Shown one piece after another: positions 24,324 through 29,619 of a stretch of DNA of 64,000 nucleotides. This stretch comes from Microbacterium sp. GTDB taxonomy: Bacteria; Actinomycetota; Actinomycetes; Actinomycetales; Microbacteriaceae. The stretch is from positions 1 through 64,000 of the forward strand of contig PNMM01000002.1 of assembly GCA_013823625.1 (NCBI GenBank), given 5' to 3'. The notes under the pieces were generated by a model. It was not told the origin of the DNA. It saw only the letters and a program-made list of their open reading frames with translations, and searched no databases. Every line of letters begins with the position of its first letter. The first letter of the stretch is position 1. The position numbers and the translations under genes are program-made.

Positions 24324-24917
24324 GTGCCCCTGAACTTCACCGCCATCGACTTCGAGACCGCCAACAACCACGCGGCCTCAGCGTGCTCGGTGGGGCTCGT
24401 GAAGGTGCGCGACGGCAAGGTCGTTGATCGGGCGGGCTGGCTCATTCGCCCGCCGTTCGGCTTCGACGACATGCTCGAGTGGAACACGCGCATCCACGGC
24501 ATCACCGCCGACGACATCATCGACGCGCCCCTGTGGGCCGATCAGGTGGATGCCCTCATCGCGTTCGTCGACGGCGACACCCTCGCGGCTCACAACGCGG
24601 GGTTCGACATGGGCGTGTTGAGCGCGGCGCAGCAGGCGAGCGCGCTCGAAGTGCCGAGCCTTTCGTACGTGTGCAGTCTGCGGATTGCCCGCAAGACCTA
24701 CCACCTCGACTCCTACCGCCTGCCGGTTGCCGCGATGGCGGCGGGCTTCGAAGACTTCGCGCACCACGATGCCCTCGCCGACGCTGAGGCGTGTGCCGCG
24801 ATCATCGTGCACGCGGCGAAGCGGCACGACGTCACCGAACTGGCCGAGCTCGCGCGCGCGTGCGGCACGAGCCTCGGCCGCACGGGCGCGCCGGCGACAG
24901 CCGACGCGACGGGCTAG
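24324..24917 (+). CDS. DnaQ-like DEDDh 3'-5' exonuclease
   Basis: 197 residues. The DEDDh catalytic set is visible: FTAIDFET (Asp9, Glu11), LAAHNAGFDMGV (Asp of Exo II), and HHDALADAEA (His and Asp of Exo III). Length and sequence fit stand-alone epsilon-like exonucleases rather than the DNA polymerase III subunit with its long C-terminus. It probably trims DNA or RNA in repair. GTG start. The stop overlaps the end of the convergent lipoprotein gene by four bases. Confidence 0.88.
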   Translation: MPLNFTAIDFETANNHAASACSVGLVKVRDGKVVDRAGWLIRPPFGFDDMLEWNTRIHGITADDIIDAPLWADQVDALIAFVDGDTLAAHNAGFDMGVLSAAQQASALEVPSLSYVCSLRIARKTYHLDSYRLPVAAMAAGFEDFAHHDALADAEACAAIIVHAAKRHDVTELAELARACGTSLGRTGAPATADATG

Positions 24918-25573
24918 CCGCCGACCACCGCCTCGTAGGTGTCAACGAGCAAGTCGCGATACTCGGGTTTCACACCGTTGATGATGTCGGTGATGCTCAC
25001 CTCAATGAGCAGGTTGCCGTTGCGCACAATCAGCAGCTCACTGAGGTTCTGCGGGGTTCCGACGAGCTCGGCTTTCGTGAGAATGCCGGCCTCTTCACCC
25101 ACGCCGGAGACGGGCTCGATGAGCTGGCCGCCCTCGCCGTCGAACTCCGCCCCGCTGAGGGCGTCGGCGAAGTACCGAGTGGGGCCGTCGGGCGATACGT
25201 ACTCGCGAATGTCGACGCCGACGGTCAACCCCGTGCCGTCATCGCTTTGGTTGTAATCGCAGCCGTAGAGGATGCCGCCGACACCGCCGGCCTCGATGAC
25301 CATCGAGATGTCGAGGTCCACCACGTCGAAGCCCCAGATGGCGGCGACCTGGTCGTCGGCGAGGAAGGAGCAATCGGTGTCAGCGCCCACGGTCTGGCCT
25401 GGCAGGCCGAGGTCTGACCCGCCGTCGGCGGGCGCCGGCGCCTCGGCCCCCGTGCCGGTCGACTCTCCCGTTGTGCCTGAACCATCAGCAGCAGGTGCGG
25501 AGCAGCCGGCCAGCAGGGCTGCGCTGAGCAGAATGGCGGCAGGGGTCAAGAGGGTGATCGCACGCGAAGTCAT
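24914..25573 (-). CDS. Lipoprotein, DUF3558-like, in the LuxR regulon
   Basis: 219 residues. A lipoprotein signal (LLSAALLAGCSAPAA, Cys at residue 24) is followed by a Gly/Thr/Ala-rich linker and an extracytoplasmic domain beginning TDCSFLADDQVAAIWGF, with a second Cys in LYGCDYNQSD; the Cys pair and order resemble DUF3558 lipoproteins. TAGTGT stands six bases before the ATG, and an 18-bp GC-rich palindrome ends 35 bp before it, matching the operator before the other lipoprotein gene at 27378. I infer joint control. Ligand and role are unknown. Confidence 0.82.
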   Translation of the reverse strand: MTSRAITLLTPAAILLSAALLAGCSAPAADGSGTTGESTGTGAEAPAPADGGSDLGLPGQTVGADTDCSFLADDQVAAIWGFDVVDLDISMVIEAGGVGGILYGCDYNQSDDGTGLTVGVDIREYVSPDGPTRYFADALSGAEFDGEGGQLIEPVSGVGEEAGILTKAELVGTPQNLSELLIVRNGNLLIEVSITDIINGVKPEYRDLLVDTYEAVVGG

Positions 25574-25579
25574 GCTCGA

Positions 25580-25585
25580 ACACTA
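25580..25585 (-). promoter_or_regulatory. -10 box TAGTGT before lipoprotein gene
   Basis: Minus-strand TAGTGT, then TCGAGC, then the ATG at 25573. The operator palindrome at 25609-25626 starts 23 bp upstream of it, covering the -35 region. Confidence 0.5.
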
Positions 25586-25608
25586 GGCACCCACGCACCC
25601 GGGGTTCG

Positions 25609-25626
25609 ATGGGGAAAATCCCCCAT
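25609..25626. promoter_or_regulatory. Operator palindrome A, ATGGGGAAAATCCCCCAT
   Basis: 18 bp with seven-base arms (ATGGGGA and CCCCCAT, six of seven paired) around a four-base AT-rich centre. A second site with the same plan is at 27326. The GGGRAWWTCCC-like core resembles sites of PAS-LuxR activators such as PimM, and a LuxR-type gene lies next to it. Confidence 0.6.
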
Positions 25627-25637
25627 GTGGCTAGTAC

Positions 25638-26366
25638 TCAGCCGTTCAATCGGTGCAGCGCCGCCGTACGGCTCGACACACCCAGCCGGCGATAGATGGC
25701 CTGGAGATGGTTCTCAAGGGTCTTCTCGCTAATGCTCAACGCGGTCGCCGCCTGGCGAACCGTCGCCCCCGACTCAAGCTGCGCGAGCACTTGGCGCTGG
25801 CGTGAGGTGAGCAGCCCGCGCGCATCGCGCGCCGCCGCCGCTCGCAACCGAGCGAGCGTGGCCCGCACGTGGCGCGCGAACTCTTCAACCATGGCGAGTT
25901 CACGATCGGTGAAGTCGCTATCGGCCCGAAACACCGCGAGCGTCTCGACAAGGCCCTGATCAACCTCGAGCAGAGTACCGATTTGGTACTCGCCACCGAG
26001 GGGGCGGTACACCTGGGCATACAGCGGTCGAGCATGCCACTGCTCGGGCGTCAAGGTGTCGCTGATGCGCAGTGACCCGGGCACGGGCGCCTCGAGCAAC
26101 TCCGCGACCATCGGCACCTCGCTCAAGACGCGCGGCATCAACGGGATCACAAACGGAATCGGTTCAGGAAGGTGGTTGCCACTCATCGCTCCCGTCGTGA
26201 GGTCGATCGACACCCAGCCGGCGCGCGTCGAGGGCACGAGCGAATAGAGAATCTCGACTGCTTCTTGCCGCAACGTAGCGGTAGACGCGATCGGGGCGAG
26301 CTGCGCAGCGGCATCGAGCAACACCTGCAGATCGGGGGCCCGCAACGACTTCACTCGCGAGATCAT
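25638..26366 (-). CDS. LuxR-type transcriptional regulator with GAF-like sensor domain
   Basis: 242 residues. Residues about 15-175 look like a GAF-type sensory domain (STRAGWVSIDLTTGAMSG, YQIGTLLEVDQGLVETLAVFR), followed by a LuxR/NarL winged helix (LTSRQRQVLAQLESGATVRQAATALSISEKTLENHLQAIYRRLGV). There is no receiver domain with a phosphorylated Asp, so it probably senses a ligand directly. The gene is 39 bp downstream of the phytanoyl-CoA dioxygenase gene on the same strand and is likely in its transcript, which would make it autoregulated through the palindrome at 27326. Confidence 0.9.
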   Translation of the reverse strand: MISRVKSLRAPDLQVLLDAAAQLAPIASTATLRQEAVEILYSLVPSTRAGWVSIDLTTGAMSGNHLPEPIPFVIPLMPRVLSEVPMVAELLEAPVPGSLRISDTLTPEQWHARPLYAQVYRPLGGEYQIGTLLEVDQGLVETLAVFRADSDFTDRELAMVEEFARHVRATLARLRAAAARDARGLLTSRQRQVLAQLESGATVRQAATALSISEKTLENHLQAIYRRLGVSSRTAALHRLNG

Positions 26367-26405
26367 AGCGATCTCACAGGGTTCATAGGGCCCCGCAACG
26401 ACGAA

Positions 26406-27293
26406 CTAGCGGTCGCAGCCTCCCGACTTATCGGCGCGCGAGCCTGGCGTGCTGAGGTCGCGCAATCCCTTGTACGCGTAAGGGTCTTCTCCGGCGACCA
26501 TCACGATGTCGCGAAAGTCGTATTCGGCGAAGTACCGCCCTTCGCTGTTCTGCCACGGCAGCAGCGACTCGGCGCTCATGTAGTGATTGACGAGTGCGCG
26601 ACGATAGCCGTGCTTGCCGCTGTTCTCGAGCGAGCGGTGCAGCAGGTAGCCATTGAAGAACAGGGCCGCACCGGCGGGCACTTCCACCGCGATCGCGTCA
26701 TCGTCGGTGTACGGAAACCCGAAGGCCTCATCGGTGCAGTCGAAGCGCTCGTCGGTCTGCTCGCGGTCGGGGTAGAGCACCCCGCGCGCCTGCGATCCGG
26801 GCAGCACCCAGAGGCAGCCGTTCTCGGTCGTCGCGTCGTCGAGGGCGATCCACACTCCGCAGAGAGAGCGGTCGCGCGTCGGAATGAAGTGCTCGTCTTG
26901 GTGCCAGGCCTGACCCGGCTTGCCCTCCGACTTGATGAACAGCATCGACTGCATGGCCTTGACGTTCGGGCCGATCACGCGCGTGAGGCCGTCGACGATC
27001 CGAGGGTGTCGCATGATGTGCCGGGCCACCTCGCTGATCTTGTGCGGGTGGTGGATGCACAAGTACTGCCGCAGCACGTCGGCGTCGCTCTGCCCCGGGT
27101 GGGCATCCACCACCGAATCGCCGGGGTTCAAGCCTGCTCGGCAGATGCGCAGGGCCTCGGAGTTGACCGCAGCCACCTCGGCCGGGGTGAGGGCGCCGCG
27201 CAGCACAGCGAACCCGTCGCGCGCGTACTGGGCAACGAAGGCCTCGTCGATGGCGTCGTGCATGACGAGCGGTGCGTGAACAGCGATGGTCAT
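26406..27293 (-). CDS. Phytanoyl-CoA dioxygenase (PhyH) family Fe(II)/2-oxoglutarate oxygenase
   Basis: 295 residues. Iron ligands are WHQDEHF (His131, Asp133) and LLHRSLENS (His219), with Arg231/232 placed to hold 2-oxoglutarate. These enzymes hydroxylate lipids, antibiotics or small metabolites; here the substrate is not known. ATG at 27293 is chosen because TATGAT lies seven bases before it; an in-frame ATG at 27305 lies inside that hexamer. The upstream palindrome at 27326 is shared with the divergent lipoprotein gene, and the LuxR gene follows. This arrangement suggests a ligand-induced oxidation system. Confidence 0.9.
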   Translation of the reverse strand: MTIAVHAPLVMHDAIDEAFVAQYARDGFAVLRGALTPAEVAAVNSEALRICRAGLNPGDSVVDAHPGQSDADVLRQYLCIHHPHKISEVARHIMRHPRIVDGLTRVIGPNVKAMQSMLFIKSEGKPGQAWHQDEHFIPTRDRSLCGVWIALDDATTENGCLWVLPGSQARGVLYPDREQTDERFDCTDEAFGFPYTDDDAIAVEVPAGAALFFNGYLLHRSLENSGKHGYRRALVNHYMSAESLLPWQNSEGRYFAEYDFRDIVMVAGEDPYAYKGLRDLSTPGSRADKSGGCDR

Positions 27294-27300
27294 GGCAAAG

Positions 27301-27306
27301 ATCATA
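27301..27306 (-). promoter_or_regulatory. -10 box TATGAT before PhyH gene
   Basis: Minus-strand TATGAT, then CTTTGCC, then the ATG at 27293. The palindrome at 27326-27343 ends 19 bp upstream. Confidence 0.55.
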
Positions 27307-27325
27307 CCTAAAGGATCACGGGGGC

Positions 27326-27343
27326 ATAGGGGAGAACCCCCAT
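27326..27343. promoter_or_regulatory. Operator palindrome B, ATAGGGGAGAACCCCCAT
   Basis: 18 bp with arms ATAGGGG and CCCCCAT (six of seven paired) around AGAA, the same plan as palindrome A. It lies between the divergent PhyH and lipoprotein genes, 34 bp before the lipoprotein ATG. Confidence 0.6.
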
Positions 27344-27377
27344 TGCTGGGCAGTGACCAGCGCGCCACAGTGGAGCC

Positions 27378-28061
27378 ATGCTCAGTCGAATTCTGCCTCT
27401 TGCTCTGATCGCAACGCTGGCACTCTCGGCGTGCTCCACCCCCGTGCCGGTCGCCTCGCCCTCGGCCGCCGCAGCGAGCAGCTCAGCCACGCCCTCCCCC
27501 ACCTCAACGCCCGAGCCCGAGCCGGTGCCGGCCGAGCTCGTGGTGCTCAACGTGGGCGTTCAGCTCTATGACTCCGAGGGCACCGAGATCGGAGCGTTCG
27601 CGTGGGCCGACGAAGCACCGCGCGCGCTGAGCGTGCTCGAGATCGCTTTCGGAGCACCCACCGCGACTGGCTTCATTCCCGGAGAAGGTGCTCACACCGC
27701 AGACTACGAGACCTACACGTTTGAGGGCGGGCTGACCTACTTCACCGCCGTCAACCTCGAGAAGCCGCGCAACGAGTTTCACGCACCCTCAGCCGTGCGC
27801 ATCGACCCGAGTTCTGACGATGTCGACGTGACCATTCGCACCCCGCAAGGCCTCGAAGTAGGAGGAACCCAGGCTGAGGTTCTCGCTCTCTCCCCCGTGG
27901 CGAACCGACTGCACATGCTGGGCACGGTCTACATGGTCGACCCCGTCGACCCGAGCATCGTGGGAGCGGCCGAAGACTCGACCGACACGATCGGCATCGT
28001 CGTTGACGCGGCAGGAGTCATCGTAGAAATCATGTCGCCGTATCCGACGAACCCGCTCTAG
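27378..28061 (+). CDS. Lipoprotein in the LuxR regulon
   Basis: 227 residues. Lipoprotein signal ending LATLALSAC (Cys19), a Ser/Pro/Thr-rich linker (about 20-50), then a beta-rich domain (LVVLNVGVQLYDSEGTEIGAF, YETYTFEGGLTYFTAVN, LGTVYMVDPVDPS). No Cys beyond the lipid anchor, and no similarity I can see to the other lipoprotein. CACAGT lies six bases before the ATG, and operator B 34 bp before it. A GC-rich hairpin follows the stop. Role unknown; the context suggests sensing or binding of the compound acted on by the dioxygenase. Confidence 0.8.
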   Translation: MLSRILPLALIATLALSACSTPVPVASPSAAAASSSATPSPTSTPEPEPVPAELVVLNVGVQLYDSEGTEIGAFAWADEAPRALSVLEIAFGAPTATGFIPGEGAHTADYETYTFEGGLTYFTAVNLEKPRNEFHAPSAVRIDPSSDDVDVTIRTPQGLEVGGTQAEVLALSPVANRLHMLGTVYMVDPVDPSIVGAAEDSTDTIGIVVDAAGVIVEIMSPYPTNPL

Positions 28062-28086
28062 GGCCTACGCCGACCGACGGATGCTC

Positions 28087-28125
28087 GCGCGGGCCGCACG
28101 GCGCTCAAGCGTGCCCGGCCCGCGC
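28087..28125. terminator. Bidirectional GC-rich terminator hairpin
   Basis: Arms GCGCGGGCC (28087-28095) and GGCCCGCGC (28117-28125) pair perfectly; an inner GCACG/CGTGC pair extends the stem across a two-base bulge. It separates the convergent lipoprotein and mmsA genes. Confidence 0.7.
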
Positions 28126-28131
28126 GCCGCT

Positions 28132-29619
<1,488 letters not shown>

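Follow-up and report, generated by a model that had tools for sequence, protein, structure and literature searches.

When an operator overlaps the −35 region of a promoter at a fixed distance from the −10 box, its geometry is that of class II activation, and lux boxes, centred near −42.5, are placed in this way. PimM, a PAS-LuxR regulator, has target promoters whose −35 region holds the consensus CTVGGGAWWTCCCBAG, with the core GGGAWWTCCC (PMC9774167). The locus compared with these systems is in the first 64 kb of contig PNMM01000002.1 of Microbacterium sp., which was analyzed as a whole and is termed the window. Its minus strand carries luxR (25638–26354), encoding a LuxR-type regulator, followed by lipA (24914–25573), encoding a lipoprotein that is DUF3558-like under the Pfam cut-off. 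Between the two genes is an 18-bp palindrome, denoted site A. We judge it likely, taken as a whole, that luxR and lipA form a two-gene module inherited as a pair with this palindromic control site between them, in which a LuxR solo activates lipA, some genes for CWB2 cell-wall proteins, and perhaps a second lipoprotein gene, lipB, with a PhyH-family oxygenase gene as a bystander. The computed basis of this explanation is site conservation, genome-wide rarity, spacing, gene co-occurrence, and a predicted fold.

The window belongs to a genome of 2.45 Mb in 4 contigs (denoted G000). It is one of a genus set of 26 genomes, 19 of them at least 90% complete, and a wider set of 99 relatives was also compared. 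G025 of the genus set is 71% complete, and its contig stops just past the lipB promoter.

The luxR–lipA Pair and Its Probable Operator

A LuxR orthologue (72–100% identity) is found in 4 of the 26 genus genomes, namely G000, G010, G017, and G025; of the 19 genomes with a completeness of 90% or more, 2 have one. A sensor-domain scan of 84,980 species, each represented by one genome, with a method that detects close relatives only, gave 83 pattern matches, four of which encode a relative: those in G010, G017, G025, and a new metagenome-assembled genome, G099, viewed as an 8.5-kb locus (L193). LipA adjoins LuxR in all five genomes. Among the 99 relatives it occurs in four, the same four as LuxR, with a single weak match of 49 residues elsewhere (G087). 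Within the genus, luxR and lipA are accessory genes. Their order with the neighboring genes is LipA-LuxR-PhyH-LipB in G000, G010, and G017 and LipA-LuxR-PhyH in G025, while the pair of G099 stands in different surroundings, without PhyH or LipB. A distant LuxR of G013 (29–31% identity) was rejected as a pair member; it adjoins apparent succinate-dehydrogenase genes, identified by reading, and has no LipA.

Site A occupies 25609–25626 and reads ATGGGGAAAATCCCCCAT; it stands 35 bp before the ATG of lipA at 25573. On the minus strand the whole footprint, 25606–25626, reads ATGGGGGATTTTCCCCAT followed by CGA. A second palindrome, site B (ATAGGGGAGAACCCCCAT, 27326–27343), precedes the ATG of lipB at 27378 on the plus strand by 34 bp. 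The hexamers TAGTGT of lipA (25580–25585) and CACAGT of lipB (27366–27371) were read directly and each end six bases before the ATG. A sequence-only reading of the window had described both palindromes, their distances, and the −10-like hexamers, all of which were confirmed by direct reading and, for the palindromes, by a pattern scan. No place in the window other than sites A and B matches ATNGGGN6CCCCAT without mismatch; a Markov-3 model trained on the window predicts 0.005 such matches in 64 kb and 0.2 in 2.45 Mb. With up to two mismatches there is no excess in the window (14 observed, 9.7 expected, and 16 of 100 shuffles equally high).

Site A is retained between luxR and lipA in all five genomes with this LuxR, G099 included. 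Across them, 14 of its 18 positions and all three of the CGA are invariant, whereas none of the 30 positions upstream is invariant and one of the 20 that separate the CGA from the −10 box; in this alignment G010 is one base shorter in the latter interval, and the gap was placed by hand. These letters are kept though LipA identity to the G099 copy falls to 40–48%. This retention makes it very likely that site A is a true operator. It appears to overlie the −35 region and to go with this LuxR and with exported proteins.

Secreted CWB2 Proteins as Possible Further Targets

Pattern searches over the genomes were paired with a reversed-pattern control. A pattern derived from the four lipA sites then known gave 14 matches in the 26 genomes with up to three mismatches. 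The zero-mismatch matches were the four lipA sites only; of the rest, three were in LuxR genomes and seven in the other 22. Each of the three (G000:C1:135618, G000:C1:137118, and G010:C24:2746) is directly upstream of a gene whose product is secreted and carries three CWB2 domains (PF04122, E 8e-48 to 3e-54), two of them after galE and one after the first CWB2 gene.

A refined pattern, TRGGGGWNNNYCCCYAT, was derived from all of these lipA and CWB2 sites. Its exact matches number four in G000 (site A, site B, and the two CWB2 sites), two in G010, one each in G017 and G025, none in G007, and one in G099, at lipA. No further exact match occurs in these six genomes, and none in 24 Mb of simulated sequence. 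The lack of other exact matches, the recovery of the CWB2 sites by a pattern made from lipA alone, and the spacing to the −10 box are each independent of the circularity of this pattern.

In the 260 nt past galE, a site was seen in G000 and G010 only among 23 genomes; G025 gave no galE match. Since G017, G025, and G099 show no CWB2 site, lipA appears to be the constant target and the CWB2 genes a lineage-specific target at most. Past galE in G004 and G001, an inverted repeat GTGTCCC-N8-GGGACAC precedes an apparent secreted-protein gene (L151, L153).

Two sets of weaker matches were set aside. A fifth candidate in G000, C1:1123926, has one mismatch, is followed at 23 nt by CACGCT, and precedes the second of two tandem lipoprotein paralogues. 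It was left out of the count, since by reading it lies within a G+C-rich inverted repeat between the paralogues. Locus scans found no site of their own at the other G000 copy or at the G007 copy, and among the other 25 genus genomes only G007 has a relative of this lipoprotein, which leaves 24 of 26 genomes without a match. Six other one-mismatch matches to the refined pattern, with reverse strands of known sites excluded, were likewise rejected; five lie within genes and one has no candidate −10 box.

Promoter Geometry

A TANNNT box lies 22–23 nt past the end of the 18-mer at all eight lipA and CWB2 sites, the five lipA sites among them not being independent of one another. In the four other LuxR genomes the lipA box is TACACT at 22–23 nt, and in the window it is TAGTGT at 23 nt. 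TANNNT occurs at these offsets for 0.14% of window positions, a background taken over all positions, mostly coding, so that the intergenic value may be higher. The lipA boxes are 6 nt before the ATG, which is a leaderless geometry, whereas the CWB2 genes, at starts chosen by the reader, have leaders. The constant is therefore the distance from site to −10 box, which would center the site on the −35 region, some 44 nt upstream of where transcription is expected to begin. A consensus scan of window positions 24800–28200 found no sigma-70-type promoter.

The sequence-only reading had taken the equal spacing of the two palindromes to their −10 boxes as what an activator would need. Equal spacing to the −10 box does count as evidence of one. 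Equal spacing to the ATG does not by itself, because a −10 box close to the ATG is a leaderless-mRNA geometry that also occurs in relatives' lipB promoters that have no palindrome. At the predicted −10 boxes, all eight lipA and CWB2 sites show an operator overlapping the −35 region at a fixed −10 distance, an arrangement from which we infer activation by LuxR rather than repression. The proposal of activator-type operators for both lipoprotein genes is supported for site A and weakly supported for site B.

Rather than binding protein, the palindromes might form hairpins or terminators in RNA where luxR, galE, and the first CWB2 gene end, since every lipA and CWB2 site comes after the stop codon of a same-strand upstream gene and the sites can fold, one of five with a z-score of −2.1. 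Against this, the remaining four sites score −0.5 to −1.0, neither site A nor site B is terminator-like, site B sits in a divergent promoter region, the letters are conserved, and the distance to the next −10 box is fixed at 22–23 nt. The hairpin reading is highly improbable.

The LuxR Protein

Translation of luxR more likely begins at GTG 26354, giving 238 aa, than at ATG 26366, because the latter sits within a TATGAT hexamer (26362–26367), read directly as the probable luxR −10 box 7 nt upstream of the GTG, and the alignment of relatives begins at the GTG. The C-terminal domain is a GerE helix-turn-helix (PF00196, E 2.7e-14, 52.9 bits against a cut-off of 23.5), and the family search of LuxR found no receiver family. 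The protein is thereby, as the sequence-only reading had it, a LuxR-type regulator without a receiver domain, and it does not qualify as a response regulator.

An assignment to the PAS-LuxR regulators of PimM type was not borne out. No PAS family was matched at E up to 1 for the whole protein or up to 10 for the sensor domain of four members, in searches where the HMMER filters discard most weak matches. GAF was matched instead in the sensor domains of three of the four, weakly (best E 0.0011), the domain of the window protein itself having no match, and none of the four matched the Pfam autoinducer-binding family. An AlphaFold2 model built on 9 sequences reached a pLDDT of 88.3; an earlier model on 4 sequences, at 51, was improved by adding the G099 protein and four distant homologues. 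For this predicted model Foldseek ranks QscR, RhlR, and SdiA highest, all of them quorum-sensing receptors (E from about 2e-8 upward, TM 0.54–0.64, 12–17% identity). The protein is classed, on the model and the weak family matches, as a GAF-like LuxR solo.

The mechanism that fits these features would begin with a ligand-gated LuxR solo, composed of a GAF-like sensor and a GerE helix-turn-helix. Its dimer would bind TRGGGG-N4-YCCCYAT(CGA), centred near −44, and activate, in the class II manner, promoters that have a TANNNT −10 box and no recognizable −35 box. The constant target would be lipA, immediately downstream of luxR; in the window genome and G010, LuxR would also reach the promoters of secreted CWB2 proteins. 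Site B might make lipB a further target in the window genome. We infer LuxR as the binder, its dimeric binding, its gating by a ligand, and the nature of the signal.

Grounds for Caution in Naming the Binder

Several observations weigh against the proposed mechanism. LuxR and LipA always co-occur, so co-occurrence cannot tell a LuxR site from a lipA site, and the window scan saw no palindromic site at the promoter of luxR itself. For the lipA-derived pattern at up to three mismatches, the reversed control also gave 14 matches. Exact matches to the refined pattern are partly circular, as the pattern was built from the sites it finds, and with up to one mismatch its counts do not clearly exceed those of the reversed pattern (strand against control matches 8:4 in G000, 5:4 in G010, 2:4 in G017, 3:2 in G025, 2:0 in G007, and 5:9 in G099). 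Looser patterns across the genus were at or below control level among the matches listed, which stop short of G000. CWB2 sites are present in 2 of the 5 LuxR genomes (G000 and G010), and G017, which has LuxR and, by reading, CWB2-like genes, has no site there. Site B also persists, with one mismatch, in G007, a genome that lacks LuxR.

The main ground for caution is that palindromes of a similar kind serve type VII secretion genes where this LuxR is absent, so that the architecture is more general than this regulator. Stretches of G018, G009, G013, and G019 (L170–L175), with no LuxR of this type, hold seven exact palindromes TGGGGAG-NN-CTCCCCAT (half site CTCCCCA); the stretches were chosen because loose searches showed such palindromes, and the seven therefore represent no rate. 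Most fall within type VII secretion genes or close to them. One locus, in G018, has an FtsK/SpoIIIE and FHA protein confirmed by Pfam, and the other type VII loci and small WXG-like proteins were identified by reading, two of the small proteins having no Pfam match. All seven palindromes have a YANNNT box at 22–23 nt on one strand, compared with a background of 2.4% per strand over window positions, and CGA follows five of them. In half sites, length, and the 22–23 nt to a YANNNT box they resemble site A; they differ from it in their center (AG-NN-CT), in their targets, and in occurring without this LuxR.

Another regulator of the cell could thus read the operator, with LuxR merely its neighbor, as the same outer plan and spacing at type VII loci would allow. 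The different center of the type VII palindromes speaks against this, as does the restriction of zero-mismatch matches to the 4 LuxR genomes of 26, for a pattern that was itself built from those sites. We regard a different binder as unlikely and retain LuxR as the probable one.

Site B and lipB

Site B lies upstream of lipB (27378–28061, plus strand), which encodes a lipoprotein that the family search assigned to no known family and which is a possible regulon member. The final base of the palindrome opens a −35-like TTGCTG (27343–27348), and the CACAGT box is 22 nt past the site. A matching element is found in the lipB promoters of eight genomes, 22–23 nt before a −10-like box and followed by the TTG of a −35-like box. 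Of 11 dyad pairs, however, site B retains 6 in G000 and 5 in G007 (by PhyH the closest to the window genome, at 97%), 3 in the three LuxR-bearing relatives, and 1–2 in G012, G005, and G021. A good palindrome is present only in the window genome, and site B is not a conserved twin of site A.

Alternatively, site B may be the lipB −35 box together with an element of another activator, which became palindromic by drift in the lineage of the window genome. In the eight promoters this element and the ATTG after it hold their position whether LuxR is present or absent, and the dyad pairs fall away outside G000 and G007. Against such drift, the half site TAGGGGAG is found in 4 of 4 LuxR genomes and in G007 and in none of the three other LuxR-less lipB promoters, and in the window the fit to the refined pattern is exact and in register. 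Drift is a tentative reading that falls somewhat short of an even chance, and it is compatible with the luxR–lipA module. That site B is a second site of the regulator, as the sequence-only reading proposed, is undercut by the lack of the palindrome in three LuxR-bearing relatives and favored by the exact refined match and the 22-nt spacing; on balance we lean toward its being a LuxR site in the window species.

PhyH as a Neighbor

Between luxR and site B is the minus-strand gene for a PhyH-family Fe(II)/2OG oxygenase (26406–27293), with a TATGAT −10 box at 27301–27306. The sequence-only reading had joined it to the two lipoproteins in a sense-and-oxidise unit controlled by LuxR through twin sites A and B. 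The gene order shared by G000, G010, G017, and in part G025 favors this, and so does site B, as one of the four exact matches in its genome and 22 nt from the lipB −10 box. PhyH (90–97% identity) is nevertheless found in 11 of the 26 genus genomes, 7 of which have no LuxR, and G099 has luxR–lipA without PhyH. Only 59 bp in G007 and 67 bp in G005 separate the exonuclease gene from PhyH, with no luxR–lipA between them. In the window the PhyH −10 box and site B are 19 nt apart, outside the 22–23 nt register, and across eight genomes the distance from this box to the element is 19, 20, 16, 13, 31, 18, 21, and 17 nt, a variability that argues against control of PhyH. On presence and absence together with this spacing, PhyH was rejected as a regulon member; it is probably a bystander outside the luxR–lipA unit. 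The sense-and-oxidise unit is accordingly very unlikely, and the attractive link to an oxygenase does not hold.

The surroundings of PhyH vary within the genus. The gap between the exonuclease and PhyH genes holds an OsmC-like gene (by sequence reading) in G016, G011, and G022 and several other genes in G012, where two equally scoring copies of PhyH occur (L055 C4, L042 C3), one of them on a contig of 9.5 kb and possibly an assembly duplicate. PhyH and a methylmalonate-semialdehyde dehydrogenase gene (window 26406–29619) are near neighbors in 10 of the 11 PhyH genomes, the G025 contig ending earlier, and LipB and the LuxR–LipA pair come and go around PhyH across the genus.

Meaning and Comparison with Known Systems

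The analysis yields a testable operator, a regulator, and a small surface-protein regulon. A search of the literature library used here returned nothing on LuxR in Microcella, on LuxR–lipoprotein regulons in Microbacteriaceae, or on cell wall binding repeats in Microbacteriaceae. As a speculative extension, luxR–lipA could be a portable cassette of a sensor and a surface lipoprotein, belonging to a Microcella family of −44 operators (ATRGGG-N6-CCCYAT) with regulator-specific centers, through which different regulators would switch surface programs such as lipoproteins, CWB2 proteins, and type VII secretion; LipA may then feed back on the signal of LuxR.

Compared with SdiA, RhlR, and QscR, the predicted model of LuxR has a like whole-chain fold of sensor and helix-turn-helix. 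It is unlike them in that the autoinducer-binding Pfam family is unmatched. The lux boxes share the position over the −35 region and differ in their letters from the sites of this LuxR.

With the PimM-type PAS-LuxR regulators, the protein shares a GerE-type helix-turn-helix. It differs in the lack of any PAS domain found and in its targets, which would be surface proteins rather than antibiotic genes. The likeness of the sites to those of PimM, which the sequence-only reading had proposed, stands in part. In G010 and G017 the core is GGGATTTCCC, which agrees with the PimM sites, as does the −35 position; the outer CT and AG are not shared (PMC9774167). These findings suggest that PimM-like palindromes over the −35 region serve a GAF-type LuxR solo outside Streptomyces.

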